Below are positions 4,694 to 25,395 of a stretch of DNA of 27,544 bases, one piece after another (position 1 is the stretch's first letter; every line of letters starts with the position of its first letter). The notes under the pieces were generated by a model. It was not told the DNA's origin, did not search any database, and was given only the letters and a program-made list of their open reading frames with translations. The translations under genes and the position numbers were made by a program. Source of the DNA: Candidatus Desantisbacteria bacterium CG1_02_49_89 (lineage in GTDB: Bacteria > Desantisbacteria > UBA1551); contig MNUP01000149.1 of NCBI GenBank assembly GCA_001871075.1, positions 1 to 27,544 on the forward strand. Direction: 5' to 3'.

Positions 4694-4765
4694 TATTGCC
4701 CCTGCAGCTGCTCATGATCCCCCCTACTTTTTTTCGAAAGTGACAGGGGGGACCTACAAGCCAGA
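4694..4765 (+). repeat. 72-bp exact direct repeat, copy 1
   Basis: Identical base for base to 4965-5036. It contains the hairpin CCCCCCT-ACTTT...AAAGT-GAC-AGGGGGG followed by ACCTACAAGCCAGA. In this copy the second stem-loop of the element is missing: the sequence diverges right after CCAGA. Confidence 0.9.
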
Positions 4766-4777
4766 GTAGTATTTTGT

Positions 4778-4838
4778 CCCTGTAGCCCCTTCGGGGCTTA
4801 ATACAGGGATTTTCGAGTCAGAACGAGGCAAATGACTC
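4778..4838 (+). repeat. Two-stem covarying element, copy A
   Basis: Stem 1 is CCCTGT/ACAGGG around an inner hairpin AGCCCC-TTC-GGGGCT. Stem 2 is GAGTCA/TGACTC around a 12-base loop GAACGAGGCAAA. It has the same architecture as the copies at 4882, 4990, 7517 and 15842, but different stem bases. Confidence 0.75.
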
Positions 4839-4881
4839 TTCAATCGATGGCTCTTCGGCGCAGGGGCCTGCGCGCCAGAAT

Positions 4882-4948
4882 CCTGCCAGCTCCAAAAGAG
4901 CTCAACGGCAGGACCTACGAATCAGAACGGAGCTGATGATTCTCCGGC
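4882..4948 (+). repeat. Two-stem covarying element, copy B
   Basis: Stem 1 is CCTGCC/GGCAGG around AGCTC-CAAAA-GAGCT, with the joining bases CAAC. Then ACCTAC, stem 2 GAATCA/TGATTC with the 12-base loop GAACGGAGCTGA, and the trailing TCCGGC. Both stems are fully paired. Confidence 0.8.
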
Positions 4949-4964
4949 TGGGTGAATGGTAACC

Positions 4965-5057
4965 TATTGCCCCTGCAGCTGCTCATGATCCCCCCTACTT
5001 TTTTTCGAAAGTGACAGGGGGGACCTACAAGCCAGAACTTAGACGATGGCTCTTCGG
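4965..5057 (+). repeat. 72-bp repeat copy 2 with two-stem covarying element, copy C
   Basis: Positions 4965-5036 repeat 4694-4765 exactly. Here the element is complete: stem 1 CCCCCCT/AGGGGGG around ACTTT/AAAGT, joining GAC, ACCTAC, then stem 2 AGCCA/TGGCT around a 12-base loop GAACTTAGACGA. Confidence 0.8.
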
Positions 5058-5070
5058 CGCAGGGGCCTAC

Positions 5071-5101
5071 GCGCCAGAGCTAAGCGGATGGCGCTCCGGG
5101 G
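5071..5101 (+). repeat. Covarying stem-loop, copy D (stem 2 only)
   Basis: Stem 2 is GCGCCA/TGGCGC around a 12-base loop GAGCTAAGCGGA, followed by TCCGGGG. The preceding GGGGCCTAC matches the joining segment of other copies, but a complete stem 1 is not present. Confidence 0.7.
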
Positions 5102-5109
5102 AGTTAAAA

Positions 5110-5289
5110 ATGGAAGAGAAAGAAGAACTTAAGTGGTATACCGGATTTTTAGACCTGGTGATGTTTTTTATGATAGTGGTAATAGGCTTTTTCTCCAGTT
5201 TCAAGCACGTGTATAACCTTATATACGGGGAAGGCAGGAAAGAAGTTATAAGGGAAATGAACAAAAGGAAGGCCAATAATTCTGATTAA
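5110..5289 (+). CDS. Single-helix mini-membrane protein
   Basis: A 59-residue protein starting MEEKEELKWYTG; GGGGAG lies 8 bases upstream. Residues about 10-35 (FLDLVMFFMIVVIGFFSSF) form one hydrophobic helix long enough to span a membrane. The N-terminal side is acidic and the C-terminal side basic (GRKEVIREMNKRK), which predicts the C-terminus in the cytoplasm. A longer reading from 5011 would translate the repeat element and is rejected. The function is unknown; small membrane proteins next to ATPases can act as anchors or regulators, but nothing here shows that. Confidence 0.6.
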   Translation: MEEKEELKWYTGFLDLVMFFMIVVIGFFSSFKHVYNLIYGEGRKEVIREMNKRKANNSD

Positions 5290-5347
5290 TCCGGCGCAGG
5301 ATATAAGGCGCAGGTTCTTTTTTGGAGCGGGAAGCTGCTGAATAAAT

Positions 5348-5400
5348 TGTCCGCCCGTCTTTTCAGCGGGCGAGACCTCGCCCCGATAGGCAACCGGGAC
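5348..5400 (+). repeat. Double-hairpin repeat, degenerate copy
   Basis: TGTCCGCCCGTCTTTTCAGC... forms the CGCCCG/CGGGCG stem of the family at 5979 and 7701. The second hairpin is degenerate here (CCCCGATAGGCAACCGGG), and the copy lies about 55 bases from the next start codon instead of directly before it. Confidence 0.75.
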
Positions 5401-5455
5401 TGCGGGACAAAAGTCAAATTGCAAATTGTAAAATGAACTGCAGAGAGGAGAGAGA

Positions 5456-5890
5456 ATGCAGAGGGAGTTTTATAAGGTGGTGGTGGAGAACTTCGGGAAG
5501 CTGGTTTCATATATCTTTTACATACCGCGGATGACGGTTGAATACAAGGTTGGGGAGTGGGTGAAACCGAAGATTGAGAATACCAGGCTATTTGTTTTTG
5601 ATACTTTTGCGTCAGCCTTGGAAGCCACAAAGCTTCAGGGAGGCATAGCTATTTACAAATGCGAAGCTACAGACCCTGTGCCCATAAAGTTCGTTGTAAG
5701 GACCTCTTACATTACCCTGCAGCCCAACCCTGATCCCAAGAGTGAAGAGCCGGGAAAGCTAAGCAGGAAATTCCTGGATTACTGGGAGAAAAGGAAATTT
5801 GACGCGGATGAAGGGGAATGTTCGGCGGAATGCCCGGCAGGGACGCTGGGGGTGGGGGCGGTAAAACTGCTGGAACAGTTAAAGAGTTAA
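5456..5890 (+). CDS. Small orphan protein, phage-type domain possible
   Basis: A 144-residue protein with GAGAGGAGAGAG before the ATG. It has a compact beta-type pattern: MQREFYKVV, then VEYKVGEWVKPK, then LFVFDTFASALEAT and GIAIYKCEA. This YKVGEW...LFVFD...A...IYKCEA arrangement reminds me of small uncharacterised phage and genomic-island proteins (DUF7666-like), but I cannot confirm that. The C-terminal 45 residues are Pro/Glu/Lys-rich with two cysteines and probably unstructured. It stands between repeat patches and just before the first AAA gene; no functional link is shown. Confidence 0.6.
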   Translation: MQREFYKVVVENFGKLVSYIFYIPRMTVEYKVGEWVKPKIENTRLFVFDTFASALEATKLQGGIAIYKCEATDPVPIKFVVRTSYITLQPNPDPKSEEPGKLSRKFLDYWEKRKFDADEGECSAECPAGTLGVGAVKLLEQLKS

Positions 5891-5923
5891 AGGGGTTAAA
5901 GGTTAAAAAGGTTAAAGATGACA

Positions 5924-5957
5924 TTGCAGCAAATTGAGAAACATATCAGTATATATT
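5924..5957 (+). promoter_or_regulatory. Promoter-like site before the first AAA gene
   Basis: TTGCAG and TATATA separated by 20 bases, followed by TTAGAGAGAGG. The second AAA gene has the same layout (7643-7677) while the 20-base spacer is almost wholly different, so the boxes seem to be what is preserved. Confidence 0.45.
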
Positions 5958-5978
5958 AGAGAGAGGCTACTGAATCTA

Positions 5979-6040
5979 CTGTCCGCCCGTCTTTTCAGCG
6001 GGCGAGACCTCGCCCCGATGGGCATCGGGGCACGGGAGGG
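5979..6040 (+). repeat. Double-hairpin leader repeat before first AAA gene
   Basis: CTGTCCGCCCGTCTTTTCAG... forms hairpin 1 (CGCCCG/CGGGCG); CCCCGATGGGCATCGGGG forms hairpin 2. It ends in CGGGAGGGG, which serves as the Shine-Dalgarno of the gene at 6044. A near-identical copy is at 7701-7764, where it again leads straight into a start codon; a variant at 15984-16037 has compensated stem changes. Confidence 0.85.
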
Positions 6041-6043
6041 GAT

Positions 6044-7393
6044 ATGAGAGAGAATAATGGGAATGGGATGTACAAACCTTTTGTCGCGATAGATCTGCCG
6101 CGCCTTGATATCAATAAGTCTTTCCTGGGATGCGAAAAGCTGTCTGAAATAGCAGAGATAAGAAGGACCTACCCGCGTATCTTAAAGGAAATAATAGGCA
6201 TAATCCTTGAAGAGCTGCTAAGGACCGAATACAGGCAGTTTCTCCCGGATATAAGGATAACGGAAAATCTGGAAAGATCGGTCAGGGATTACCGTTTGAT
6301 AGATATGGGCGGCATGAAATTGCGCTTCGCGGATACCGAGGCGATGTGGTGGTCAAAGCCACTTGGGATGGTTTTTGACGGGGACATATGCAAGGCGGAC
6401 TATCCCATTGTGGAGGGTTTGCTTTTGATATCAAAAGACAACTGCAGGCTCAAGATAAACATTGATTCGCGCGGAGATAATATTATGCATATTATGGCAA
6501 CGGTCACCCGCGATAATATTGAGAACGCACTTAAATTTTTTTCCGAAATAGAGAAAGGATTGAGCCGGACAAAAGGCGTTTTTGACGGTAACGGACAAAG
6601 GATAACGATAGCCGGAAAACGCGGCTGGGAAGAGGCGGTATTGAGCAGGCAGATAATTGAAACGATAGAATCCCAAGTCTTAGGATTTATGAAGGAGGAA
6701 AACCGCGCGTTTCTTGCCGCCAACTCCATACCCATAAAAAGAGGTTTGCTGTTCTACGGGCCCCCGGGCAACGGCAAGACCCTTACAGGAAAGATAATCG
6801 CAAACCAGACAAAAGTCTGCTTTATACTCTGCACCAACAAGAACTTCGTTTCCGGTTGGCGGGATGACGATTTAATCCGGATATACAAATTTGCAAGGGT
6901 TATTTCACCTTCGATAGTTTTTATTGAAGACATTGACCTGGTTATAGGAGAGAACACGCACAGGCTGGGAACACTACTCCAGGAACTGGACGGGATCGAG
7001 GAGAACGAAAACGTGATAACGATCGCCACAACGAACCACCCGGAAGCCATAAACGAGGCGCTGGGAAGGCCTGGAAGGTTTGACATAAGGATTGAGTTCC
7101 CAAACCCGGACTTTGAAACAAGGATCAAGCTCCTGAAGCTTTTCACAAAGAACCTGGTGCTTGACAGCAGCGCCGATCTTGGGGAAACAGCGGAAAAAAC
7201 AGAGGGCTTCTCGTGCGCGGCCATGAAGGAGGTTGTCACGCGCAGCCTGGTAACGGCATATGAAACAGGGTCTGTTACAGACGGAAAGGTGGTTGTCGGG
7301 AAAGAGCACCTGGAAAGAGCTGCTGAGTTCGTGCAGAGGGTGAAAGGGATGATAGGGTTTACCGCGGACGCTGAACCAGCCCATAGACCATAG
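6044..7393 (+). CDS. AAA ATPase with orphan N-terminal domain (paralogue 1)
   Basis: A 449-residue protein. Residues 1-215 are an unrecognised domain; residues about 230-440 are one AAA module. Walker A is GPPGNGKT (239-246), Walker B is IVFIEDID (about 291-298) with the acidic pair in E-D order as in BCS1-type and some CDC48-like ATPases, sensor 1 is TIATTN (326-331), and GRPGRFD (341-347) carries the arginine-finger region. It should form a hexamer that remodels or unfolds proteins using ATP; the substrate is unknown. The start is fixed by GGGAGGGG from the upstream hairpin repeat. The stop codon and last residues (AHRP) lie within a heptamer array (CCATAG-type units). The next gene encodes a paralogue with the same leader. 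No protease or membrane domain is fused. Confidence 0.85.
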   Translation: MRENNGNGMYKPFVAIDLPRLDINKSFLGCEKLSEIAEIRRTYPRILKEIIGIILEELLRTEYRQFLPDIRITENLERSVRDYRLIDMGGMKLRFADTEAMWWSKPLGMVFDGDICKADYPIVEGLLLISKDNCRLKINIDSRGDNIMHIMATVTRDNIENALKFFSEIEKGLSRTKGVFDGNGQRITIAGKRGWEEAVLSRQIIETIESQVLGFMKEENRAFLAANSIPIKRGLLFYGPPGNGKTLTGKIIANQTKVCFILCTNKNFVSGWRDDDLIRIYKFARVISPSIVFIEDIDLVIGENTHRLGTLLQELDGIEENENVITIATTNHPEAINEALGRPGRFDIRIEFPNPDFETRIKLLKLFTKNLVLDSSADLGETAEKTEGFSCAAMKEVVTRSLVTAYETGSVTDGKVVVGKEHLERAAEFVQRVKGMIGFTADAEPAHRP

Positions 7394-7407
7394 TCCATTG
7401 TCCATAG
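7381..7407 (+). repeat. Heptamer array (ACCATAG/TCCATTG type) spanning the AAA stop codon
   Basis: Four 7-bp units, CCATAG, ACCATAG, TCCATTG and TCCATAG. The stop codon of the first AAA gene (7391-7393) lies inside the array. Confidence 0.75.
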
Positions 7408-7516
7408 CAGGATTAACTTACTATTGCAAAAGTCAAATTTTAAATTGCAAATTGCAAAAGTTTAAGTTCAAGCACGAGATTTTAAAAGGGAACTTAAGAG
7501 AACTTAAATTACTTTG

Positions 7517-7587
7517 CCCCCTGCGGGTTTCTGCGAAACCACAACGCTGGGGCCTACGAACCAGAGCTGGGCCGATGGTTCTCCGGC
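7517..7587 (+). repeat. Two-stem covarying element, copy E
   Basis: Stem 1 pairs CCCC..GC with GC.GGGG around an inner hairpin GGTTTC-TGC-GAAACC and joining ACAAC. Then CCTAC, stem 2 GAACCA/TGGTTC around the 12-base loop GAGCTGGGCCGA, and TCCGGC. Stem bases differ from every other copy but remain paired. Confidence 0.8.
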
Positions 7588-7642
7588 ACGGATTTGCACG
7601 GATGAATATCTTTTAGTTTTTAAACTAATGACTAATGACTGT

Positions 7643-7677
7643 TTGCAGCGGAATGGCGGTGAAGCGAGTATATATTA
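7643..7677 (+). promoter_or_regulatory. Promoter-like site before the second AAA gene
   Basis: TTGCAG, 20 bases, then TATATATTATAGAGAGG. It corresponds to the site at 5924-5957 before the first AAA gene. Confidence 0.45.
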
Positions 7678-7700
7678 TAGAGAGGAGCACGCCACTGAAC

Positions 7701-7764
7701 CTACTGTCCGCCCGTCTTTTCAGCGGGCGAGACCTTGCCCCGATGGGCATCGGGGCGCGGGAGG
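7701..7764 (+). repeat. Double-hairpin leader repeat before second AAA gene
   Basis: Near-identical to 5979-6040: hairpin CGCCCG/CGGGCG, then hairpin CCCCGATGGGCATCGGGG, ending in GCGGGAGG, the Shine-Dalgarno of the gene at 7770. The upstream ACTGAACCTACTG also matches the first copy. Confidence 0.85.
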
Positions 7765-7769
7765 ATATA

Positions 7770-9209
7770 ATGGAAAAGGAAATGAACGTGCGGTTTAACG
7801 GGCCGATCCCAATAGAGCTGCCACCGCTGGCAAAGCCGGTAAAACAGTTCCTTGAATGTGAAACTGACGCGGACATAGAGACGGTTGTGCAAAACTATCC
7901 TGCCACTTTCGGCGGCATTGTGGAAAGGTCGATCCTGGGCTTAATCGGCAAGGAATACGAGGTATGCTTCCCCAAGATAAAAAATTCGCAGCTTGAGACC
8001 AAGATCGCCTCGATCTGTAACGACAATTATGATACCGGGGCGGACCTTCACTTCGCGATGAGCACAGCCCAGCACAATGATTGGTACGCTTACGAGCCTT
8101 CGTCCCCCTTTGTCTATTCGCCGGGAAAAGACGGAAGCGCGAAACGCGATATCGGCATAACCACGAGAAGGGAGTTTGTTTACCTGCGGTCAAAAGACGG
8201 CGGGAAAATAGTTGCGGAATTTTACAACAACTGGCTTACCTATGAAGTGATCCTGCGGGTTTACGCGGACAGGTCAAACCTGGGCGGAGCGGTGCTGTTT
8301 GTCAGGCGGATAGAAGAAGCGTTAAACGGTGTCAAGGGAACGCTTTTTAACGGGACAGGCCAGATATTTGAGCTGGGTAAAAATTACGCGTGGGAAGACG
8401 CTTTCCTGGGTGACGGGGTAACGGAAATACTAAGGCACAACATATCCTTCTTCCTTGAAAACCGGGCGTTCTTTCAGGAACACGGCATTCCCTGCAAAAG
8501 AGGGATACTGTTTCACGGCCCTCCGGGCAACGGCAAGACCCTTGCGGGCAAGATACTTGCCTGCCAGTCCGGCATCAATTTCATATGGGCAACGAGCAAG
8601 CATATTTTCTGGCTGGAGCATAACTGCAGGAGCGACGCTTTCGCAGCGGTGTATGAACTCGCGAGGCGCATTTCGCCCTGCATCGTTTTCCTGGAGGATA
8701 TTGACCTGCTTGTGGGCGAAGAAAGAACGGACTCCAAAGCCAGGCTTGGCGCTTTCCTGAACGAGCTGGACGGCTTTGAGAATAATAAGCATGTTATTAC
8801 CATCGCTACTACGAATTTCCCGGAAGTGCTGGATAAGGCGATCTCAGAAAGGCCGGGAAGGTTCGACGTGAAGGTCCGGTTCGACAACCCGGATCACGCA
8901 ACAAGGCTGGGCATCCTGAAAATGTATGGCAAGAGCCTTGAATTCGAGCAGGACGCGGACCTGGAAGAGATCGCTGATGCCGCGAACGGGCTTTCCTGCG
9001 CGGCTGTAAGGGAAGTTGTGACCCGCGCCTTTATAAAGGCGTCTGAAAGGGTGTTCCGCGACAAAACCGGGGGCAAGATAGCAATTTTGCGGGAAGACCT
9101 GCTCGGGTCAGTTTCGTTCCTGTCAAACGGGAAGGTGAAGATGGGGTTTGAGGCAGATAAAACAGTGGCCAGTGTCCCGCCCAGCAAAATTGGCGGGCAA
9201 GCCCAGTGA
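7770..9209 (+). CDS. AAA ATPase with orphan N-terminal domain (paralogue 2)
   Basis: A 479-residue protein from the ATG preceded by GGGAGG; an in-frame extension to 7635 would cross the hairpin repeat and is rejected. Residues 1-230 are an unrecognised domain; residues about 240-450 are an AAA module: Walker A GPPGNGKT (250-257), Walker B IVFLEDID (305-312), sensor 1 TIATTN, and SERPGRFD (359-366) carrying the arginine-finger region. The motif order, the E-D Walker B and the wider sequence mark it as a paralogue of the preceding gene; two subunits could co-assemble, but that is inference. The last residues (TVASVPPSKIGGQAQ) are encoded by a heptamer array containing a palindrome, so this C-terminus is repeat-derived. 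ClpP follows about 210 bases downstream. Confidence 0.85.
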   Translation: MEKEMNVRFNGPIPIELPPLAKPVKQFLECETDADIETVVQNYPATFGGIVERSILGLIGKEYEVCFPKIKNSQLETKIASICNDNYDTGADLHFAMSTAQHNDWYAYEPSSPFVYSPGKDGSAKRDIGITTRREFVYLRSKDGGKIVAEFYNNWLTYEVILRVYADRSNLGGAVLFVRRIEEALNGVKGTLFNGTGQIFELGKNYAWEDAFLGDGVTEILRHNISFFLENRAFFQEHGIPCKRGILFHGPPGNGKTLAGKILACQSGINFIWATSKHIFWLEHNCRSDAFAAVYELARRISPCIVFLEDIDLLVGEERTDSKARLGAFLNELDGFENNKHVITIATTNFPEVLDKAISERPGRFDVKVRFDNPDHATRLGILKMYGKSLEFEQDADLEEIADAANGLSCAAVREVVTRAFIKASERVFRDKTGGKIAILREDLLGSVSFLSNGKVKMGFEADKTVASVPPSKIGGQAQ

Positions 9210-9220
9210 CCAGTGTCCAG
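9163..9220 (+). repeat. Composite: CAGTGNC heptamers interrupted by a palindrome
   Basis: Units CAGTGGC and CAGTGTC, then the palindrome CCCGCC(9176-9181)...GGCGGG(9192-9197), then CAGTGAC and CAGTGTC. The second AAA gene ends inside it (TGA at 9207-9209). The palindrome matches those at 18559 and 25342, and each sits right after a GTC or ATC array unit. Confidence 0.8.
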
Positions 9221-9250
9221 TTACAGATTGAAAGACATTTTGAACAGGGA

Positions 9251-9279
9251 ACCCTCCACCAAGATCGGCGGGCAGGCTT
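9251..9279 (+). repeat. Partial palindrome copy
   Basis: ACCAAGATCGGCGGGCAGGC matches the right half of the palindromes at 9176, 18559 and 25342. The left arm has decayed. Confidence 0.5.
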
Positions 9280-9368
9280 AAGAGAACTTAAAAAGATTCA
9301 GCCACGGATTTGCACGGATCTTAACCTTTAATCCGTTAATCTATTAAACCTTTAATCAAATATTTTAC

Positions 9369-9396
9369 TCATGACACATGACTCATGACGCGTGAC
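9369..9396 (+). repeat. Heptamer array TCATGAC/ACATGAC/GCGTGAC
   Basis: Four 7-bp units end about 20 bases before clpP. The nearby 9299-9316 stretch also holds CACGGATTTGCACGGAT, a phrase recurring near 7588, 11711 and 17412. Confidence 0.75.
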
Positions 9397-9417
9397 TGTA
9401 TCTAAAGGGAGGGAAAG

Positions 9418-10002
9418 ATGGAACTTGTGCCGATGGTAGTGGAGCAGACCCCGAGAGGGGAAAGGGCGTGCGATATTTACTCGCGCCTGCTCAAGGACAG
9501 GATAGTTTTTATCGGTTCGCCGATCGACAGCGTGAAGGCTAATATCGTGACGGCGCAGCTCCTGTTCCTTGAGGCGGAGGACCCGGGAAAGGACATATGC
9601 ATTTACATAAACACGCCGGGGGGCATCACGACCGCGGGCCTGGCGATCTACGACACGATGCAGTATATAAAGCCGAAGATCTCAACGCTGTGCGTGGGAG
9701 AGGCGGCAAGCATGGGAGCGCTTTTGCTGGCAGCAGGGGCGAAAGGCAAGAGACTTGCCCTGCCCAATGCCTCAATACTCATACACCAGCCGCTTGGGGG
9801 AGCGCAGGGCCAGGCTTCTGACGTGGGCATCCGCGCGAAGGAGATTTTGAAAACAAAGGACAGGCTGAACAGGATACTTTCCAGGCACACGGGCCAGCCG
9901 TTTGAGCGTATTCAGAAAGACACTGACAGGGATTTTTACATGGACGCGGAAGAGGCGAGGGAATACGGGATCATTGACGAAGTGATCAGGCAGAGAAAGT
10001 AG
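9418..10002 (+). CDS. clpP: ATP-dependent Clp protease proteolytic subunit
   Basis: A 194-residue serine peptidase of normal ClpP length. The catalytic triad is Ser98 in [11 protein letters not shown], His123 in ILIHQPLGG and Asp172 in [20 protein letters not shown] (64-70) is the substrate-binding/oxyanion strand, and [10 protein letters not shown] starts the handle helix. ClpP forms a cytoplasmic 14-subunit chamber that degrades proteins fed by an AAA+ unfoldase. The start follows AGGGAGG. The N-terminal [23 protein letters not shown] is the standard mature region, so little or no propeptide is present. The next gene encodes a ClpX-like unfoldase, the usual clpP-clpX order, and two further AAA genes lie upstream. 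Confidence 0.97.
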
Positions 10003-10020
10003 GGGATTAACTAAAAACAT

Positions 10021-10068
10021 TTCAAATTGTAAATTTCAAATTGTAAATTTCAAATTGAAATAAATTTC
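10021..10068 (+). repeat. 14-bp (2x7) AT-rich tandem array between clpP and clpX-like gene
   Basis: TTCAAATTGTAAAT is repeated twice, followed by TTCAAATTGAAATAAATTT. It belongs to the CAAATTG family also present near 5408-5437, 7424-7460 and, within a gene, 14991-15025. Confidence 0.75.
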
Positions 10069-10085
10069 TTAAACAGGGAGACGCC

Positions 10086-11702
10086 ATGGAAGAATATTAC
10101 GGGAGCAACAGGGAATATTTGCAGGATTGTTTTCAGCTTGTCAAGATGATAGAGCGCAAGGCAAACGAGGCAAGCCGCGGGCCGGTGCCTGCAACAAAAA
10201 AGCCGGAAGAAAGCGATAAGCCTGAACAGGCAGATCCCATTGAAGAGCTGAGAGGCAGGATCAGCAGGAAGGCGGCTGAATCCATCCGAAGGAAAATCAG
10301 CATCCCGCTTGAGGAGCTTGTCAAAAAGCACAAGTTAAGCGAAGACGAAAGAAAGATCCTTATGATCTTGACTTACGGGGAAAGCATGTGCTCAACAGAA
10401 TACCAGGACCCGAAACGGATGCTGAACCTGCTCACGCTGGGTAAAACAGAGGAAGCGATAAAATACTGGCATTATTTCAAGATCGATTCCGGGCTTTACC
10501 GGAAGAAGATAATTCTTATGCTGCCCAATGACCTGGCATACAGGTGCTATTTCATCAGGATCAGGCCTGACAAGCTTTTAAAAATACTGGGCGAGAAAAG
10601 CGGGAAAAAACCTGCCAGGAAAAAAACAAGGCAGAAGCTTCCGTCTGTTTCAGGGCCGCGGCAGATCTATTCGGGGCTGAACAGATACGTTGTGGGGCAG
10701 GATTACGCGAAACGGATGATCTCGGTCGCTTTGTACCAGCATTTAAAAAGGATCAAGCTCAATGAAGAAAGGAAGCCGGCGGACAGGATAGACAAAAGCA
10801 ATATCCTTATAATAGGCCCCACCGGCGTAGGCAAGACATTCCTTTGCCGGATGCTCGCGAACACGCTCAAGCTGCCGATCGCTTTCTGCGACGCAACCCA
10901 GTACACGGAAAGCGGGTATGTTGGGGCGGATGTAGAAGAGATGCTTGTCAGGCTTGTGAAAAGCGCCGAAAACAACATCAGGATGGCGGAAAGGGGCATC
11001 GTGTATATTGACGAGGTGGACAAGCTGGTAAGAAGGAATCCGGGAGGCGGCCACTTTGCCGGGAACAAGGACGTGAGCGGTGAGAGCGTCCAGCAGGAAC
11101 TGCTTAAACTGCTTGACGGCGAGATGATCCATTACAACGGAAGGCATTTTCTCTCCCCTTCAGTGGCCATGAACGTGAGAAACGTTCTTTTCATAGCAGG
11201 CGGCGCTTTTGACGGCCTGGAGGATATAATCAGGAAAAGGATGAGCGGCAAGCGGATAGGGTTCGAAACGCCGGACAGCAGCGGAGCTCTCGCGGAAGGC
11301 TCGCTTCTCAGGCATATAACTACGGAAGACCTGATCAACTACGGGTTTACGCCTGAATTCGTTGGCAGGTTCCACACGATCGTGCCTATGGAAAGCCTGA
11401 CAAAGGAAGAGCTTGTGAATATCCTGACAGAACCGCGCAACGCCATTGTCAAGCAGTACGTGGAGCTTTTCAAGGCAAGCGACATAGACCTGGAGATACC
11501 GCGGCAGGCGCTTGAATTAATAGCAGAGCAGGCGCTGAAAAGAAAATCCGGGGCAAGAGGGCTGAGGGCGATAATGGAAAACCTGCTTTCCCCGATGCTT
11601 TTCGAAAGGATGGACAAGGCTTCGCAGAACCAGGGCAAGATCGTGCTGGAAAAAGAGATCGTGGAAGGGATAGCTGCCAGGATGGAGGAAAAGGCCGGCT
11701 AA
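10086..11702 (+). CDS. clpX: ClpX-like unfoldase with replaced N-terminal domain
   Basis: A 538-residue AAA+ protein, about 110-120 residues longer than typical ClpX. Residues 200-538 are ClpX-like: Walker A GPTGVGKT (244-251), pore loop YVG (278-280), Walker B VYIDE (306-310), KDVSGESVQQELLKLLDGE, GGAFDGL, and sensor-2 GARGLR (489-494). The ClpP-docking tripeptide IGF is present (391-393), so it should bind ClpP. The four-cysteine zinc-binding domain that normally starts ClpX is absent; residues 1-195 are instead a helical, Lys/Glu-rich region with no motif I know (IPLEELVKKHKLSEDERKIL). The entrance-loop RKH motif is also altered (YNGRHFLSP). Substrate choice is therefore probably different from standard ClpX. 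AGGGAG precedes the ATG. It may be the only ClpX or a dedicated accessory copy; the window cannot tell. Confidence 0.9.
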   Translation: MEEYYGSNREYLQDCFQLVKMIERKANEASRGPVPATKKPEESDKPEQADPIEELRGRISRKAAESIRRKISIPLEELVKKHKLSEDERKILMILTYGESMCSTEYQDPKRMLNLLTLGKTEEAIKYWHYFKIDSGLYRKKIILMLPNDLAYRCYFIRIRPDKLLKILGEKSGKKPARKKTRQKLPSVSGPRQIYSGLNRYVVGQDYAKRMISVALYQHLKRIKLNEERKPADRIDKSNILIIGPTGVGKTFLCRMLANTLKLPIAFCDATQYTESGYVGADVEEMLVRLVKSAENNIRMAERGIVYIDEVDKLVRRNPGGGHFAGNKDVSGESVQQELLKLLDGEMIHYNGRHFLSPSVAMNVRNVLFIAGGAFDGLEDIIRKRMSGKRIGFETPDSSGALAEGSLLRHITTEDLINYGFTPEFVGRFHTIVPMESLTKEELVNILTEPRNAIVKQYVELFKASDIDLEIPRQALELIAEQALKRKSGARGLRAIMENLLSPMLFERMDKASQNQGKIVLEKEIVEGIAARMEEKAG

Positions 11703-11710
11703 CTACCTTT

Positions 11711-11739
11711 GCAACCACGGATTATCACGGATTTCCACG
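11711..11739 (+). repeat. CACGGAT-type short tandem repeat
   Basis: CCACGGATTATCACGGATTTCCACGAATTT holds three degenerate units of 11-12 bases. The same phrase recurs near 7588, 9299 and, in reverse, 17412-17456. Confidence 0.65.
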
Positions 11740-11824
11740 AATTTAAATCCTGGCTTTTTAAAATAATCACTATAATCTCTTTCTAAATCACCGTAATCAT
11801 GGCGCGCAGCGCCAGGGGGTAAAA

Positions 11825-12613
11825 ATGGAGATAAAATGCAAGGAATGCGGGAGCACGGACCTGAAAGGCTTGAGCACGTGGGCTTCAACCTCGATCGAGT
11901 TTGACATCAAGCCCACGCCGCCAGGCGAATGCATTGTCGCGGACTCTTTGCGCGCCGAAGAGATAAAACCTTCAAGGCACGTGCGTTTTTACTGCAACAA
12001 CTGCAAGAAGGAGATCTACGCAAGCGAAATCCTCCTGGACGGGAAAGACATGGACATGGACAGCTGCGAGTTTGAGCTGGGAACGGTAAAAATAAACGCT
12101 GCCGGGTCCGCGAAACTGAGCCTGGTCCTGTTCACCGAAGAGGAGATAAAAAAGAAAAAGGAAAGGGAATTAAACCACGACGACGATTATGAAGAAGAGC
12201 AGAAAGGGTTCCTCGTGGAACTGCTCTTCGGGTATTACGACACTATCAGGTGGTACAATGACGACCTGCCGCCTTACGACGACCTTAATAAATTAAAGGA
12301 AGCGTTCTTAAAGGAAGCGGCGGAGGGGGAAGAAGCGAGGGCAAAGCTATTTAAGAACGGGGCGGACAATATCCCGAGATATTATCCCGTGGGAGCAAGC
12401 CAGGAACAAAAAGAAAAACTGAATAAGTACTATGACAGATATGCCCTTCTAAAAGCAAAGGTTTATCTCTGGTTCCTTTTAACCGAAGACGAAATGAAGA
12501 AGCTGAGTCGCGAAGTGGTGGATCTCATCAAAGAGCACTGGCCGGAATTAAGGGATAAGGTTTTTCCCGAAAATATGCGGGCAAGCGAACTTCTTTCGTG
12601 GCTGCAGGACTGA
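11825..12613 (+). CDS. Zinc-ribbon protein of unknown function next to clpX-like gene
   Basis: A 262-residue protein that I do not recognise. C5-x2-C8 (CKECG) and C57-x2-C60 (CNNCK) together form a likely zinc ribbon in the first 62 residues. A hydrophilic acidic/basic segment follows (KKKKERELNHDDDYEEE, about 110-127), then a helical C-terminal half rich in Tyr, Lys and Glu. There is no membrane segment. AGGGGG 6 bases upstream supports the ATG. It starts about 120 bases after the ClpX-like gene, which lacks its own zinc-binding domain, so an adaptor or substrate-recognition role is an attractive but unproved inference. A strong promoter follows it, so it ends this block. Confidence 0.7.
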   Translation: MEIKCKECGSTDLKGLSTWASTSIEFDIKPTPPGECIVADSLRAEEIKPSRHVRFYCNNCKKEIYASEILLDGKDMDMDSCEFELGTVKINAAGSAKLSLVLFTEEEIKKKKERELNHDDDYEEEQKGFLVELLFGYYDTIRWYNDDLPPYDDLNKLKEAFLKEAAEGEEARAKLFKNGADNIPRYYPVGASQEQKEKLNKYYDRYALLKAKVYLWFLLTEDEMKKLSREVVDLIKEHWPELRDKVFPENMRASELLSWLQD

Positions 12614-12657
12614 AAAAAGGAGAAGGGGGGCTATTTTTTGCCAAAAACCGCAATTCC

Positions 12658-12685
12658 TTGACTTTTGCCCTAAATGATATATAAT
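12658..12685 (+). promoter_or_regulatory. Sigma-70-type promoter for the radical SAM gene
   Basis: TTGACT and TATAAT with a 16-base spacer. Transcription would begin about 20 bases before the ATG at 12712, leaving a very short leader without a Shine-Dalgarno sequence. Confidence 0.75.
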
Positions 12686-12711
12686 AGATATGAGAAAATT
12701 TATAAAGTCTA

Positions 12712-15276
12712 ATGAATACCACAAATGAATCTATTATAAATATATTGGGGTCTGTCAGCAAGCCCACAAGATACGTTGGCAACGAATGGAATTCCGTCGA
12801 ACGTCGAACGTCGAACGTCGTACGTCCAATAAGGATCGCATTAGCTTTCCCGGATGTGTATGAGATCGGGATGTCGCATTACGGGATGAACATCCTTTAC
12901 CACCTGCTCAACCAGCAGGAAGGCGTTACCGCGGAAAGGGTGTATCTTCCTGCTCCTGACATGGCAGGCAGGATGCGGGAGAACAAGATCCCGCTGTTCA
13001 GCCTTGAAACCCACACGCCTGTAAGGGATTTTGACATAATCGGGTTCAGCCTGCAGTATGAAATGTCGTACGTGAACGTGCTTGAAATGCTTGATCTTGC
13101 GGGCTTGCCGCTTTTATCAGAAGAAAGAGGCGATGACCTGCCGCTTGTGATAGCCGGCGGGGCGTGCGCTTTCAACCCGGAGCCGATGGCGGAGTTTTTC
13201 GACCTTTTTGTGATAGGCGAAGCAGAGGAAGCCCTTTTAGAAATCGTGTCAACGTGTCAACGTGTCAACGTGTCAGAGTCAAAACACAAAAGGCAAAATT
13301 TACTACGGGAAATAGCGGGGATAGAAGGGGTGTATGTGCCGGCATTTTATGATGTGCAATACAACCCGGACAATACGATCAGTTCCGTAAAGCCGAAATA
13401 TGAAGGCGTTGCACCCAGGGTCAGAAAAAGGTTCATCGCGGATTTTGACGCGGCGTTCTGCCCGATAAAACCGGTTGTGCCGTTCCAGTCGATCATACAC
13501 GACAGGGCTGTGCTTGAGATCCTGCGCGGGTGCTGCCAGGGATGCAGGTTCTGCCAGGCAGGGATGATAACCAGGCCTGCGAGAGCGCGTTCCGAAGAGC
13601 GCGCGCGGGAGTTAATACAGGAGCTTATGTCAAACACCGGGTGGGAGGAGATCTCCCTGCTCGCGCTTAACGCGTGCGATTTTCCCGGCATAGAAGGGCT
13701 TGTTTCCTGGATCGCGGGGAAATACTCGGGCAAGGGGATCAGCATCTCGCTTCCGTCTTTGCGGCCCGGGAGCTTTTCCGTGAAGCTTGCCCGGCTCATA
13801 TCAATGGGCATGCGGGTCAGGCCGACCCTCACTTTCGCGCCTGAAGCCGGGACACAAAGGCTGAGGGACTCGATAAATAAGGGCGTGAGCGAAAAAGACC
13901 TTTTCGAAAGCACGGGCAGCGCGTTCAACTCCGGATGGGATTCGTGTAAGCTCTATTTCATGATAGGGCTGCCAGGAGAGACCGGCGATGACCTGAAAGG
14001 CATTGTGGACCTTGCAAGGGAATTGCGCAGGCCGGGGCAGAGGGTGAACCCGAAAGCAAGCCTGCGCCTGAGCATTTCTTCGTTCGTCCCAAAGCCGCAC
14101 ACGCCTTTCCAGTGGGAACCGCAGGATGGCATAGGAGCTTTAAAAGAAAAACAGCAGAAACTTCTTTTGGATCTAAGAAAAACAGAAGTAAGGTGGTCCA
14201 GGCCCGAAATGAGCTACCTTGAGGGGATCTTTGCCAGGGGTGACAGGCGGCTGGGCAGGGCGCTCTTTTACGCGTGGAAGAGCGGGGCGCAGGTTGACGC
14301 GCAGGAAGAAAAAATATCCGGGTTTGCCGTATGGGAGGACGCTTTCCAGAAAGCAGGCACTGACCCGGCTTTCTACCTTTACAGGAAAAGGGAGTACGGC
14401 GAAGTCCTGCCGTGGGACCACATAGACACGCTGGTCAGCAAAGATTTCCTGGTTTCAGAAAGCAGGAAAGCGAAGGAAGGAATAGTTACGCCGAACTGCA
14501 TATCCGGGGAGTGTAACGAGTGCGGCGCTTGCGAAAGCAAACAACCGTCGTACGTCGTACGTCGTACGTCGGACGTCAAAGATGAAAACATCCAGTACCT
14601 TCGGGCATCCAGCATTCAGCTTCCAGCTGACGCGAAGCAGAGGTTTCGCGTCAAGTACAGCAGGGGAGAGGAACTGAAATACATATCGCACCTGGACCTG
14701 CAGCGCCTTCTTGCGCGGGCTTTACGCCGCGCCGAGATACCGTTCGCCTTCTCAAAAAGTTTCCACTCTCTTCCGCTTATCCTGCCCGGAGTCCCGCTTT
14801 CAGTGGGAATGCTGAGCGACTGCGAGCTGTGCGACGTCCTGCTCTCGGAAAGGATGGAACTGGGGGAGTTCGCGAAAAGGTTTTCATCCCAGATGCCGCG
14901 GGGGATCGAGCTGAAAGAAGCCCAGGAGATAATGCTGGCGGCGCCGGCGATCGTAAATGCTGTTAGATACGTGAGATACGAAATAAAAGTCAAATTGCAA
15001 ATTGCAAATTGCAAATTGCAAAATGAAATACAGGAACTCCTTAAGAAAAATGAAATAATGGTGAGAAGGAAGACGCCGAAAGTTGACAAGACCGTGAACA
15101 TAAGGCCGGGAATTGAAAGCATTGAGCTCAGCGAATCCGGGTTGAACGGGTGCGTTATCCTTGATGTCCTGTTGAAAATGATGAGGGAAGGGCAGGCAAG
15201 GCCGGACGAAGTTGCAGGCGCTCTTCTGCCGGGAGTTGGTATAGCGGAAATAAAAAGGACCGAAATCATTTTCTAA
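12712..15276 (+). CDS. Fused B12-binding-type radical SAM protein with DUF2344 domain
   Basis: An 854-residue protein of the TIGR03960 family fused to a TIGR03936/DUF2344 domain. Residues 8-180 are the N-terminal B12-binding-like part ([44 protein letters not shown]). The radical SAM core carries C274-x3-C278-x2-C281 ([13 protein letters not shown]) for the 4Fe-4S cluster. Residues about 645-845 are DUF2344 ([33 protein letters not shown]). The reaction is not established; the family is often called YgiQ-like. Four short tandem arrays lie in frame: residues about 28-39, 178-188, 612-622 and 760-771, all in places that look like loops or the linker. No Shine-Dalgarno precedes the ATG; the start agrees with the family N-terminus. 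Confidence 0.93.
12795..12827 (+). repeat. In-frame octamer array CGTCGAAC in the radical SAM gene
   Basis: Three CGTCGAAC units, one CGTCGTAC, then GTCC. It encodes residues about 28-39 ([10 protein letters not shown]), between the NEWNSV motif and the first strand of the Rossmann-like domain. Confidence 0.85.
13245..13276 (+). repeat. In-frame octamer array CGTGTCAA in the radical SAM gene
   Basis: Three CGTGTCAA units and one CGTGTCAG. It encodes [11 protein letters not shown]. The same octamer occurs in glyS (18539 and 20405) and before the deacetylase gene (25329). Confidence 0.9.
14546..14577 (+). repeat. In-frame octamer array CGTCGTAC in the radical SAM gene
   Basis: Three CGTCGTAC units and one CGTCGGAC, encoding [11 protein letters not shown] in the linker before DUF2344. 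A looser run (GCATCCAGCATTCAGCTTCCAG, here broken as GCATCCAGCATTC then AGCTTCCAG) follows at about 14606-14627. Confidence 0.9.
14991..15025 (+). repeat. In-frame heptamer array CAAATTG in the radical SAM gene
   Basis: Four CAAATTG units and one CAAAATG, encoding [11 protein letters not shown] in the C-terminal part. The same unit occurs between genes near 5408, 7424 and 10021. Confidence 0.9.
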
Positions 15277-15277
15277 C

Positions 15278-15314
15278 CCCTCACCCGCCACCCTCTCCCA
15301 CAAAGGGGCGAGGG
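15278..15314 (+). repeat. Hairpin of the CTCACCC...CCCTCTCCC family
   Basis: CCCTCTCCC and GGGGCGAGGG pair around ACAAA, preceded by CCTCACCCGCCA. The same kind of sequence, in the opposite orientation, lies inside the DUF167 gene (about 26351-26398). No U run follows. Confidence 0.65.
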
Positions 15315-15340
15315 ATATAAGGAAATTAAAAGGGAGCAAC

Positions 15341-15784
15341 ATGAAGAAAAGACTGTCGTGGGACGAATATTTTATGAAGATCGCGGAGCTTGTGGCGCAG
15401 CGCTCAACCTGCCTGCGCAGGCAGGTGGGCTGCGTGATAGTAAGGGATAAAAGAATGCTTACCACGGGATACAACGGCGCGCCCAGAGGCCTTAAACACT
15501 GCAGCGAGACCGGTTGCCTGCGCAACAAGCTGAAGATCCCTTCAGGCGAAAGGCAGGAGCTGTGCCGCGCCCTGCACTCGGAGCAGAACGCGATCATCCA
15601 GGCGGCGCTTACAGGCATAAGCCTGAACGGTTCTGTGCTGTACTGCACGCACCAGCCCTGCGTGGCCTGCGCGAAGATGCTTATCAACGCCGGAATAAAA
15701 AAGATTGTTTACAAGGGCGAGTATCCGGACAAGCTCGCGCTTTCGATACTTAAAGAAGCGGAGATTAAGTTGGTAAAGAAATAA
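15341..15784 (+). CDS. Deoxycytidylate (dCMP) deaminase family protein
   Basis: A 147-residue protein with the zinc-dependent cytidine-deaminase fold. The metal and catalytic residues are H79 and E81 (ALHSEQNAI) and C107 and C110 (QPCVAC). The family phrase STCLRRQVG (22-30) and TGYNGAPRG (42-50) are intact, and residues 54-75 carry further His/Cys of the second zinc site (HCSETGC...LC). It converts dCMP to dUMP in the dTTP pathway; ComEB of competence operons is the same family, but no other com genes are here. AAAGGGAG precedes the ATG. It follows the radical SAM gene by 64 bases and may share its promoter. Confidence 0.93.
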
Positions 15785-15841
15785 CTACTTAAGTTTACAT
15801 AGTTTACAGAGTTTATATAGTTTACAAAGTTATAAATCCGT

Positions 15842-15919
15842 GCCGTAGGGTCATCAGCTTGGTTCTGACCCGAAGGTCCCTGCGTTGAGCCCGCCACGAA
15901 TATTGGCGGGCTGCAGGGG
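15842..15919 (-). repeat. Two-stem covarying element, copy F (minus strand)
   Basis: Read on the minus strand: stem 1 CCCTGC/GCAGGG around an inner hairpin AGCCCGCC...GGCGGGCT, joining CAAC, then ACCTTC, stem 2 GGGTCA/TGACCC with the 12-base loop GAACCAAGCTGA, then TACGGC. It is the only complete copy in this orientation. Confidence 0.8.
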
Positions 15920-15983: not shown

Positions 15984-16037
15984 CTCGCCCATCCTTTCAG
16001 GTGGGCGAAGTCTCGCCCCGATGTCCATCGGGGCGGA
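15984..16037 (+). repeat. Double-hairpin repeat, compensated variant
   Basis: Hairpin 1 is CGCCCA...TGGGCG (A-T replaces the G-C pair of 5979 and 7701), then GTCTCG, then hairpin 2 CCCCGATGTCCATCGGGG. It is about 95 bases from the next start codon. Its second hairpin alone recurs at about 26580-26599. Confidence 0.75.
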
Positions 16038-17660: not shown

Positions 17661-18537
17661 GATTTTAAGTTTCCAGGAAATAATACGGAAGCTTGAAGAC
17701 TACTGGGCAAAGAAAGGCTGCGTGATACTTCAGCCCTACGACATAGAGGTGGGCGCCGGGACTTTCCATACCGCTACATTCCTGCGCGTGCTTGGCAAAG
17801 ACGCGTGGAACGCGGCTTACGTCCAGCCGTCCAGAAGGCCTGATGACGGAAGGTACGGGGATAACCCTAACCGGGTGCAGCAGCATTACCAGTTCCAGGT
17901 GATACTGAAGCCCGCACCCGCGGACGCGCAGGAGATCTACCTTGAAAGCCTTGAGGCGCTGGGAATAAAGCGCAAAGACCACGACATCAGGTTTGTGGAG
18001 GATAACTGGGAATCGCCGGGGCTTGGGGCGTGGGGCCTGGGCTGGGAGGTATGGCTGGACGGGCTTGAGATAACCCAGTTCACGTATTTCCAGCAGGCAG
18101 GGGGAATAGACCTTGACCCGGTCTCCGTGGAGCTCACATACGGGCTTGAGCGCATTGCTATATATATTCAAGGAAAGAATAATATATATGATATAGAGTG
18201 GGGAGGGGGGAGAACATACGGGGATATACAGCTTGAAGTAGAAAAGCAGTTCTCCAAATATAATTTTGAACTTGCGGACGTCCAGACGCTCCTGAAGTTG
18301 TTTGACCTGTATGAAGGCGAAGCCAGAAGGATGCTTGAAGCGAAACTTGTGCTTCCTGCCTACGAATACGTGATGAAATGCTCCCATGCGTTCAACCTGC
18401 TGGATTCAAGGGGAACGATAAGCGTGACAGAGCGGGCGTCAATGCTGGGAAGGATAAGGGTGCTTGCGAGAAGATGCGCGGAATTATACATTGGGAAGCC
18501 TCAACTTGTTGAGGAAAGAAATAAGAAGGAGAAATAG
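17647..18537 (+). CDS. glyQ: Glycyl-tRNA synthetase alpha subunit
   Basis: A 296-residue class II synthetase subunit of normal length. It contains the diagnostic stretches [55 protein letters not shown] (motif 2 region), [20 protein letters not shown] and [10 protein letters not shown] (motif 3). It activates glycine and, with GlyS, charges tRNA-Gly as an alpha2beta2 enzyme. The ATG at 17647 sits in a heptamer array; GAGGGAC at 17632 is the likely ribosome site. The stop codon is one base before the chosen GTG start of glyS, so the pair is translationally close and cotranscribed from the promoter at 17481. Confidence 0.97.
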
Positions 18538-18538
18538 A

Positions 18539-18600
18539 GTGTCAACGTGTCAACGTGTCCCACCTAGAAAGCGTTGGCGGGCAGGCAACGTGTCAACGCA
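18539..18600 (+). repeat. Composite octamer array and palindrome at the glyQ/glyS junction
   Basis: GTGTCAAC units (18539-18558), the palindrome CCCACC (18559-18564)...GGCGGG (18576-18581), then AACGTGTCAACGCAAAA. The last part and the palindrome match 25329-25394 closely. Confidence 0.85.
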
Positions 18601-20731
18601 AAAGAAGAACCTACTACTAGAAATAGGATGCGAGGAACTGCCGGTTTTCCATCAGGCGCTTATAAGGGAAAAATTCGCCAACCTGGATGAAAGGGGGTTT
18701 AGCCGCCTAAAACATGGCAGGCTGATGCTTTATACAACGCCAAGGCGTATCGTGATCTGCGCTGAGGACCTGGCAGGCAAGACTGATATATATAAGGAAA
18801 AGGTTTTTGGACCGCCAAAAAATGTCGCTTTTGACAAGGAAGGAAAATTCACCCCCGCGGCAATTGGTTTCGCGAAATCCCGGGATGCCCGCGCGGAAGA
18901 CCTGAAGATCGAACGGAATGAGACCAGGGGGGGCGGCGAATACGTATGCGTTGAAAAGACATCCGGGGGCACAGACACCAAAGCATACCTGAAGGAACTG
19001 CTGCCCGCGTTGATAAGAAGCATTGGCGCGATTTTCGAGAAGACAATGCGCTGGCCGCAGGAAAAGGAATTAAGTTTTTCAAGGCCTGTGAGATGGATCC
19101 TCGCTCTCTACGGAAAAGAAATAGTGAAGTTCAGGGTTTTCGGCCTGGATTCTTCGAATATAACCTGCGGCAACCGGCTTGCAGCGAACAGAAAGATAAA
19201 AATAAAAGAAGCCGGCATCGAAGAGTTTAAGAAAACGCTTGCAAAAGCGTATGTGATGCTTGACCAGGATGTAAGGGAAGAATCCATAATGCTGCAGACA
19301 CAAAAAGCGATTGAGTGCGAACATACTGATAGCGTTGATCTTGCGCACAGGAAACTTGTCGCGGAAGTCGCCGGGCTGGTTGAATGGCCGCGCGCAGTGA
19401 CAGGAGTTTTTTCGAAGGAGTACCTTGACCTGCCGGCTGAGCTTGTAAAAACATGCATGATGGGCCACGAAAGATTTTTCCCGGTTGAGAAAAACGAGAA
19501 GCTTGAGGCGAAATTTATTTCTGTCCTGAACAACCCGCTTAAAAGCGCGGAGAAAGCTATAAGGAAAGGTAACGAGTCTGTACTTACCGCAAGGCTTGCT
19601 GACGCGAAATATTTTTATGAACATGACGCAAAGGAGGACCTGAACGCAAGGTTTGAAAGACTGAAGAATATAACCTTTCAGGGAAAAATGGGTTCGATGT
19701 TCGATAAATCACTGCGCATCAAGGAGATGGCATCTGCGATCTCCTCTCTGCTTGGAGTCGACGCGCAGGCCGCTGCAAAAATATCCCGCGCAGCGGAACT
19801 TTCGAAAATAGATATAGGCACGCGGGTTGTAAGCGAGTTCCCGTCGCTTCAGGGCAAAATGGGAAGGATATACGCGAAAGCAAGCGGGGAAGACGAAAAT
19901 ACGGCAGCGGCAATAGAAGAACAATACACGGACAGGCCCGCGGGCATAGCCGGAGCGGTCATCGGCATAGCTGACAGGATAGACAACATCTGCGCGTTTT
20001 TCGCGCAGGGGTACAAGGCAACCGGCTCAGAGGACCCGTACGGCGCAAGGCGCGACGCGCAGGGGCTCATAGAGATCCTGATGCGCACTACGCAGGTAGG
20101 CAGCCTTCCGATAAACGGCCTGGTGGACAGGGAGCTTGAGCTTGTTTCGGAAAAATCCGCGAACAAGAACGCGAAAAGCGAAATAATGTCGTTCATTAGG
20201 CAGCGCGTCCAGACACTCTTCAAAGAAGAGAGCATCGAATACGATGAATCGGACGCGGTCATGGAAACAGCGCTTAACATTAACCTGCGCACCGCTGTTG
20301 AAAGGGCAAAGGTAATACAGCAGTTCAGGGAACGCGAAGATTTCAAGAAATTTATTATCGCGTTCAAGCGCGTAGTGAATATTTTAAAACAAGCAGAAGT
20401 CAAGCGTGTCAACGTGTCAACGTGTCAACGTGTCAACGAAGAACTGCTGAAGGAGAAGGAAGAAAAAATTCTATACGAAATATATTTGAAAATAAAAGAT
20501 GACGTAAAAGATAAAATTGAAAAAAATAATTTCAAAGAAGCGATGGAAAAACTTCTCGCGAACCTCGGAAAGCCCATCGACGATCTGTTCGACAACGTGA
20601 TGGTGATGACAGACGATAATGACCTGAAAACGAACAGGCTCGCGATTTTATCCGCGATAGCGGGTTTATTCTTCTTAACCGCCGATTTTTCCAAAATTGT
20701 CCTGAGCGAGCAGGAAGCGGTAAAAAAATAG
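18539..20731 (+). CDS. glyS: Glycyl-tRNA synthetase beta subunit
   Basis: A 730-residue protein if started at the GTG at 18539, which has AAGGAG 7 bases upstream; a GTG at 18590 (713 residues) is the alternative. The conserved protein begins at NLLLEIGCEELPVFH. Later marks include YTTPRRI, FSRPVRWILAL, GHERFFPVE, TARLADAKYFYEHDA, IADRIDNICAFF and GSEDPYGARRDAQG (the HD-related region), with a C-terminal tRNA-binding domain. It recognises tRNA-Gly and works with GlyQ. Residues 2-22 (STCQRVPPRKRWRAGNVSTQ) are translated repeat and palindrome, an extension the family lacks. A second array of the same octamer encodes residues about 623-634 ([10 protein letters not shown]) in a loop of the C-terminal domain. 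Confidence 0.95.
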   Translation: MSTCQRVPPRKRWRAGNVSTQKKNLLLEIGCEELPVFHQALIREKFANLDERGFSRLKHGRLMLYTTPRRIVICAEDLAGKTDIYKEKVFGPPKNVAFDKEGKFTPAAIGFAKSRDARAEDLKIERNETRGGGEYVCVEKTSGGTDTKAYLKELLPALIRSIGAIFEKTMRWPQEKELSFSRPVRWILALYGKEIVKFRVFGLDSSNITCGNRLAANRKIKIKEAGIEEFKKTLAKAYVMLDQDVREESIMLQTQKAIECEHTDSVDLAHRKLVAEVAGLVEWPRAVTGVFSKEYLDLPAELVKTCMMGHERFFPVEKNEKLEAKFISVLNNPLKSAEKAIRKGNESVLTARLADAKYFYEHDAKEDLNARFERLKNITFQGKMGSMFDKSLRIKEMASAISSLLGVDAQAAAKISRAAELSKIDIGTRVVSEFPSLQGKMGRIYAKASGEDENTAAAIEEQYTDRPAGIAGAVIGIADRIDNICAFFAQGYKATGSEDPYGARRDAQGLIEILMRTTQVGSLPINGLVDRELELVSEKSANKNAKSEIMSFIRQRVQTLFKEESIEYDESDAVMETALNINLRTAVERAKVIQQFREREDFKKFIIAFKRVVNILKQAEVKRVNVSTCQRVNEELLKEKEEKILYEIYLKIKDDVKDKIEKNNFKEAMEKLLANLGKPIDDLFDNVMVMTDDNDLKTNRLAILSAIAGLFFLTADFSKIVLSEQEAVKK
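20405..20438 (+). repeat. In-frame octamer array CGTGTCAA in glyS
   Basis: Four perfect CGTGTCAA units plus CG, encoding [11 protein letters not shown] between KQAEVK and EELLKEKEEK. It is the longest perfect octamer array in the window. Confidence 0.9.
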
Positions 20732-25328: not shown

Positions 25329-25388
25329 CGTGTCAACGTATCCCGCCCAGCAAGATTGGCGGGCAGGCGTTGTGTCAACGTGTCAACG
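25329..25388 (+). repeat. Composite octamer array and palindrome before the deacetylase gene
   Basis: CGTGTCAACGTAT, palindrome CCCGCC (25342-25347)...GGCGGG (25358-25363), CAGG, then CGTTGTGTCAACGTGTCAACG. It closely resembles the glyS junction composite at 18539-18600, including the GCAAAA that follows. Confidence 0.85.
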
Positions 25389-25395
25389 CAAAAAC

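Follow-up and report, generated by a model that had tools for sequence, protein, structure and literature searches.

What kind of element is repeated, with its pairing kept and its sequence changed, along a 27,544-nt stretch of the genome of Candidatus Desantisbacteria bacterium CG1_02_49_89 (contig MNUP01000149.1, positions 1 to 27,544; hereafter the window)? A preliminary description of this stretch reported six copies of a stem-loop with 6-base arms and a fixed 12-nt loop, five of them accompanied by a second, upstream stem, and suggested either a structured RNA or a single-stranded DNA (ssDNA) hairpin used for mobility. All six copies are present with the arms and 12-nt spacing described, including the pair AAGCCA/TGGCTC with its one mismatch. 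They are members of a double-hairpin family that numbers approximately 111 in the 2.48 Mb genome, and both the anatomy and the mobility of this element are well supported. We consider it probable that it is a non-autonomous mobile ssDNA double hairpin, or nicked dumbbell, of 66–77 bp, moved in trans most likely by a Y1 (HUH) transposase.

The family was defined with a 42-nt covariance model built from the six window copies, which produced 89 matches across the genome (best E value 1.6e-12; 88 at E <= 2e-5). A pattern search added a further 22 copies that share the same frame, in which the whole top of the first hairpin is replaced by CCCGCCACGA(A/T)TATTGGCGGG. The complementary strand had been used in the preliminary description; we read the opposite strand because GNAG lies just outside the stem there, and we refer to the stem with the 12-nt loop as hairpin 1 (P2) and to the stem formerly called upstream as hairpin 2 (P1). 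On this strand the two hairpins abut with no spacer. P2 reads CC-GNA-GRRYCA-TYNRCYYNGYTC-TGRYYC-GNA-GG and is followed directly by P1, which comprises YCCCTGY, a GTTR bulge, a variable inner hairpin and RCAGGGR. Among 85 copies of equal core length the element starts with CC and terminates in RCAGGG followed by A or G, such that its ends are bases of its own two hairpins. The boundary is sharp: position 1, before CC, carries 0.17 bits, and positions 2–4 carry 1.45–1.81 bits.

The 6-base arms are real, but the P2 stem extends beyond them. Two outer pairs covary, C2-G35 (72 CG and 10 TA among the 85 copies) and C3-G34 (80 CG and 4 TA), and they lie outside a symmetric GNA/GNA internal loop, where G4 stands opposite A33 and A6 opposite G31 in 83 of 85 copies each. 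Symmetric loops of this kind are known for sheared G.A pairs, which are likely to form here as well. GNAG is found at the 5' foot of one hairpin in 80 of 85 copies and of the other in 79, and the covarying CC/GG pairs suggest that these foot bases also form the GNA/GNA loop. Neither the CC/GG pairing, nor the GNAG tags, nor the nesting of copies described below had been recognised in the preliminary description. The 12-nt loop holds in the six window copies, but it is not fixed across the family, being 14 nt in two copies and belonging to a replaced top in 22.

Folding rather than sequence is what is conserved. Pairing is retained in 99.1% of P2 cells (84 distinct sequences), with two-sided changes at seven of eight pairs; these occupy 100 cells, compared with 27.7 +/- 4.0 after shuffling, a value attained in none of 500 shuffles. 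The P2 covariation score is 0.430 against 0.179 in shuffles. Shuffles ignore the common descent of copies, whereas sliding the partner by one base preserves their relatedness, and the signal is lost under this control also. The arms of P1 likewise covary. Beyond such compensatory changes, entire hairpin tops are exchanged, and approximately ten kinds of inner P1 hairpin and eight kinds of P2 stem occur in 32 combinations; both phenomena we attribute to the preservation of the fold and not of the sequence.

Strong compensatory change, a stable fold (z -3.6 to -5.7, computed as DNA) and an intergenic location are also what a dispersed structured RNA, cis-regulatory or small and selected for its RNA fold, might display. 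We nevertheless think this very improbable. Rfam 15 has no match, even at E <= 1, and there is no excess of G.U pairs on either strand; with the terminal pair excluded, 13 G.T and 14 A.C pairs give no strand preference. Gene context and orientation are inconsistent: 46 of 69 copies, when read on the GNA-loop strand, lie on the C-rich strand, antisense to local genes and opposite to the GC skew and the coding strand (binomial p 0.008), and none of these 69 falls between divergent genes, although such gaps make up about 6% of intergenic bases. Moreover, the top of either hairpin is swapped wholesale, and copies are inserted into one another.

This nesting supports the alternative suggestion, that of a mobile hairpin, and in the window the hosts of copies a, b and c are older copies of the element. 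Copy a (4777–4843, minus strand) is a complete double hairpin. Its host, a broken duplicate of copy c entered at the P2 loop, has halves that match copy c; the P1 side of this host lies at 4718–4766 (minus strand, family D9), and its P2 remnant occupies 4845–4880 (minus strand, family D20) together with the P1 arm and half of the P2 of a second broken duplicate, that of copy d. The latter hosts copy b (4881–4947, minus strand), again complete, in its P2 loop, which is exactly 12 nt when closed up; the loop hosting copy a closes up to 17 nt, and this case is not clean. Copy c (4989–5057, minus strand), also complete, sits within the P1 hairpin of copy d (4970–5099, minus strand), of which the P2 side spans 5059–5099 and the P1 arms, 5059–5065 and 4970–4976, are parted by the nested copy. 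The second stem is present in the five copies for which it had been claimed, and copy d (listed at 5071) has one too, split by copy c. Beyond the window, five more copies lie inside P2 loops, and excising the insert in silico restores the consensus 12-nt loop (six cases including copy b). Close pairs of copies are on the same strand in 12 of 13 cases.

Copy e (7518–7586, minus strand) is a complete double hairpin within a CCGTG host repeat and has an A.A mismatch in P1 that is typical of its subfamily; it is flanked by two adjacent, related AAA+ ATPase genes (6044–7393 and 7635–9209). Copy f (15843–15919, plus strand), complete and 77 bp long, lies in the host repeat AAATCCGTG|GAAATCCGTGG, uninterrupted paralogues of which occur elsewhere. 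Such uninterrupted paralogues are common: in a search covering about one third of the genome, 45 of 88 copies have flanks that, once joined, match uninterrupted sequence elsewhere, for example AAATCCGTG joined to GAAATCCGTGGCT and CTCAGTGAATTCAGTG joined to AACTCAGTGGCT. These are other copies of the host repeat and not the same locus, and they show the shape of an empty site rather than excision. Insertion is seamless, the target is not duplicated, the hosts are other repeats and the loops of other copies, and orientation is fixed relative to the host repeat.

Subfamilies are confined to particular host repeats (CGTG, TTTCGT, CCGA, GCGA, GATTT and CCCAG are favoured), and copy f is like C125:8529 in its flanks, beyond the element itself. 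Both observations would agree with passive spread, in which the element had no transposition of its own and was copied only within larger host repeats, through recombination or the transposition of those repeats. We regard this as improbable, since several unrelated hosts, loops of the element's own kind among them, carry it with identical exact ends, and independent insertions have therefore occurred.

How the element moves is a matter of greater inference. Seamless, strand-specific insertion of hairpin-bounded units is typical of the Y1/RAYT superfamily (PMC8266576; RAYT, tyrosine transposases associated with repetitive extragenic palindromes, REPs), and on this ground we infer that a Y1 enzyme mobilises the element in trans. 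The active form would be a single strand folded as two abutting hairpins, a nicked dumbbell, with P2 closed by two pairs around the GNA/GNA loop and bearing an exchangeable top, and P1 bearing the GTTR bulge and an exchangeable inner hairpin. A Y1 (HUH) tyrosine transposase of the IS200/IS605-RAYT superfamily would recognise the GNAG-footed hairpins and move the folded strand in trans, probably at replication forks, and the strand would insert seamlessly, in an orientation fixed relative to the host repeat and without duplicating the target. Candidates are available, for the genome contains ten Y1 transposase genes or fragments; no recombinase or transposase of the IS110 type was found in it.

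Several observations weigh against this mechanism. The 1.5 kb to either side of each of the ten Y1 genes or fragments is free of copies, whereas a RAYT gene usually has the repeats that it mobilises at its flanks; a Y1 locus bearing the element may be missing from the sequence, the genome being 93.5% complete. Several of the Y1 genes have other repeats beside them instead: arrays made up of GTAACTCAAACCTTCAGGTTTGA or of GGAAGCCTCAACTTGTTGAGG, or GGGACAG-type ends in inverted orientation. Exact GTAG, with T in second place, occurs at the feet of the two hairpins in just 38 and 33 of 85 copies. There is no common target tetranucleotide beside the insertions, unlike in IS200/IS605; many differ, and the commonest, CGTG, accounts for 14 of 79. 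Among some hosts the position of the 3' junction varies by approximately one base, and independent insertions may be fewer than copies, since the element and its host repeats may have multiplied jointly. The G.T and A.C pairs are uninformative as to which strand folds. Finally, gene orientation and replication direction coincide here, so that the cause of the orientation bias is not separable, and it may reflect the former rather than the latter; if the Y1 enzyme followed IS608 in using the lagging-strand template, it is the complementary strand, and not the GNA strand, that this bias would place there.

Two forms of target choice were considered and rejected. Under the guide-target rule of IS200/IS605, assessed completely for movement of the GNA strand, none of the element's columns tells more about the flank than subfamily relatedness does. 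A preference for hairpin loops was not supported either: stems of at least 5 are found at 18 of 79 insertion points against 19.8% expected from intergenic controls (p 0.29; for stems of at least 7, p 0.08). The insertions into loops are real, although a preference for loops is not demonstrated.

Other features of the Y1 loci may be recorded here. Two Y1 genes (160 aa) lie within GTAACTCAAACCTTCAGGTTTGA arrays at L088 (G000:C23, 1824–4176), likely a separate REP system, and at L089 (G000:C111, near record position 7597) a Y1 gene lies between tandem GGAAGCCTCAACTTGTTGAGG repeats, with related repeats downstream. Four others (L002, L003, L004 and L006) are situated between inverted GGGACAG-type ends and resemble the tyrosine transposases flanked by terminal inverted repeats of PMC3733652. 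Single P1-like hairpins (CCCTGC..GCAGGG) without P2 occur at L002 (G000:C13), upstream of a Y1 gene, and at L153 (G000:C80:10333), where a second Y1 gene follows some 2.5 kb downstream; as a link between enzyme and element these are too weak, and they were not used.

The lack of an adjacent Y1 gene and of a fixed target raises the possibility that a double-hairpin element was moved without Y1, either through an RNA intermediate and reverse transcription or, at extruded hairpins, through break repair and template switching, a proposal made for fungal mitochondrial double-hairpin elements. The present element does resemble double-hairpin elements in its anatomy, in exchanging hairpins and in inserting seamlessly with no duplication of the target; for such elements RNA intermediates have been suggested on account of missing flanking duplications (PMC2800124), and one reverse transcriptase gene is present, a fragment at a contig end (L180, G000:C119:37201-37527). 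By its motifs this enzyme looks like the diversity-generating type, however; both ends of the element are intact in nearly all copies, in contrast to the frequent truncation of reverse-transcribed copies, and on the GNA-loop strand most copies run antisense to genes. We judge a route of this sort possible but unlikely. The genome also has three tyrosine recombinase matches, and P1 of many copies contains GTTRRRY-like bases; no complementary RYYYAAC was noticed, in the course of work that did not specifically test for an integron attC site.

The element may be compared with known small mobile repeats. PATE-like elements are non-autonomous IS200/IS605 derivatives with a hairpin at each end that insert without duplication. 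The present element shares these features, seamless insertion and a strand bias, but is without a conserved target tetranucleotide or matching guide, and without a transposase gene remnant. The small dispersed repeats of cyanobacteria are 21–27 nt, mobile and non-coding, and insert into other repeats; the element is similarly very small, non-coding and inserted into repeats, but has two covarying hairpins and is 66–77 nt long.

REP-like repeats are the nearest known kind, although no described REP family is matched literally. With the GTAG-tagged REP/RAYT systems (Escherichia coli REP/BIME and REPINs; PMC3733652, PMC8266576) the element shares intergenic, palindromic, high-copy and lineage-specific hairpins, GNAG at the 5' foot, stem irregularities, variable loops and a genome rich in Y1 genes. 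Its GNAG feet bear comparison with the degenerate GTAG tags described in PMC3733652, where some GTAG families are also found to lie within palindromes. The scarcity of exact GTAG, the CC/GG pairs around a GNA/GNA loop and the visible seamless nested insertions are its own, and a fixed head-to-tail pair of unlike hairpins is unusual against REPs (PMC3733652). The double palindromes of Pseudomonas putida and P. fluorescens, in which degenerate GTAG-1 units adjoin unrelated stem-loops in hundreds of copies (PMC3733652), are similar in joining a GTAG hairpin to a second hairpin and in their many dispersed copies; they form the inverted ends on either side of a tyrosine transposase gene, however, which the present element does not. 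A canonical REP with its own RAYT is rejected, none of the ten Y1 genes or fragments having a copy within 1.5 kb, and for this reason, and because there is no conserved target tetranucleotide, we do not class the element as a REP; it works like REP repeats and like mitochondrial double-hairpin elements.

The latter, from Allomyces and Schizosaccharomyces (PMC10085805, PMC2800124), are likewise short, two-hairpin, mobile, mostly intergenic and without flanking duplications. The element described here differs in its bacterial chromosome, its copy number, common sequence frame, GNA/GNA loop and GTTR bulge, and the likeness is one of anatomy, with no sequence relation claimed. It is conceivable, though we advance it only tentatively, that the element is a bacterial counterpart of these and constitutes a separate mobile class, a closed or nicked ssDNA dumbbell in which shape alone defines the cargo, with exchangeable tops and neither a fixed target nor an adjacent dedicated transposase. 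No relative was found in 58 other genomes, including one from the same phylum, in GTDB contigs or in IMG/VR, where two matches lack the structure; a looser pattern gave 24 single matches in unrelated genomes, which were not inspected singly and are taken as chance.

The dissemination mechanism of REP-like repeats is described as poorly understood (PMC8266576). Their ends, preserved fold and insertion hosts are usually obscure, whereas here the many diverged and nested copies of one genome reveal all three exactly. With precise ends and ten candidate Y1 genes, the question of mobilisation is open to direct in vitro testing.

Other repeats are present in the window. A 79-bp repeat (CCGCCCGTCTTTTCAGCGGGCGAGACC...GCCCCGATGGGCATCGGGGC) is found a short way before the starts of three successive genes (5334–5412, 5966–6044 and 7691–7769), and part of it recurs at 15994–16034. 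Octamer tandem repeats (CGTGTCAA) are found inside four long open reading frames or at their margins (13234–13291, 18527–18568, 20394–20451 and 25364–25401), and CGTCGTA-type repeats at 12788–12826 and 14546–14584; both give the impression of short repeats that are spreading within coding regions.

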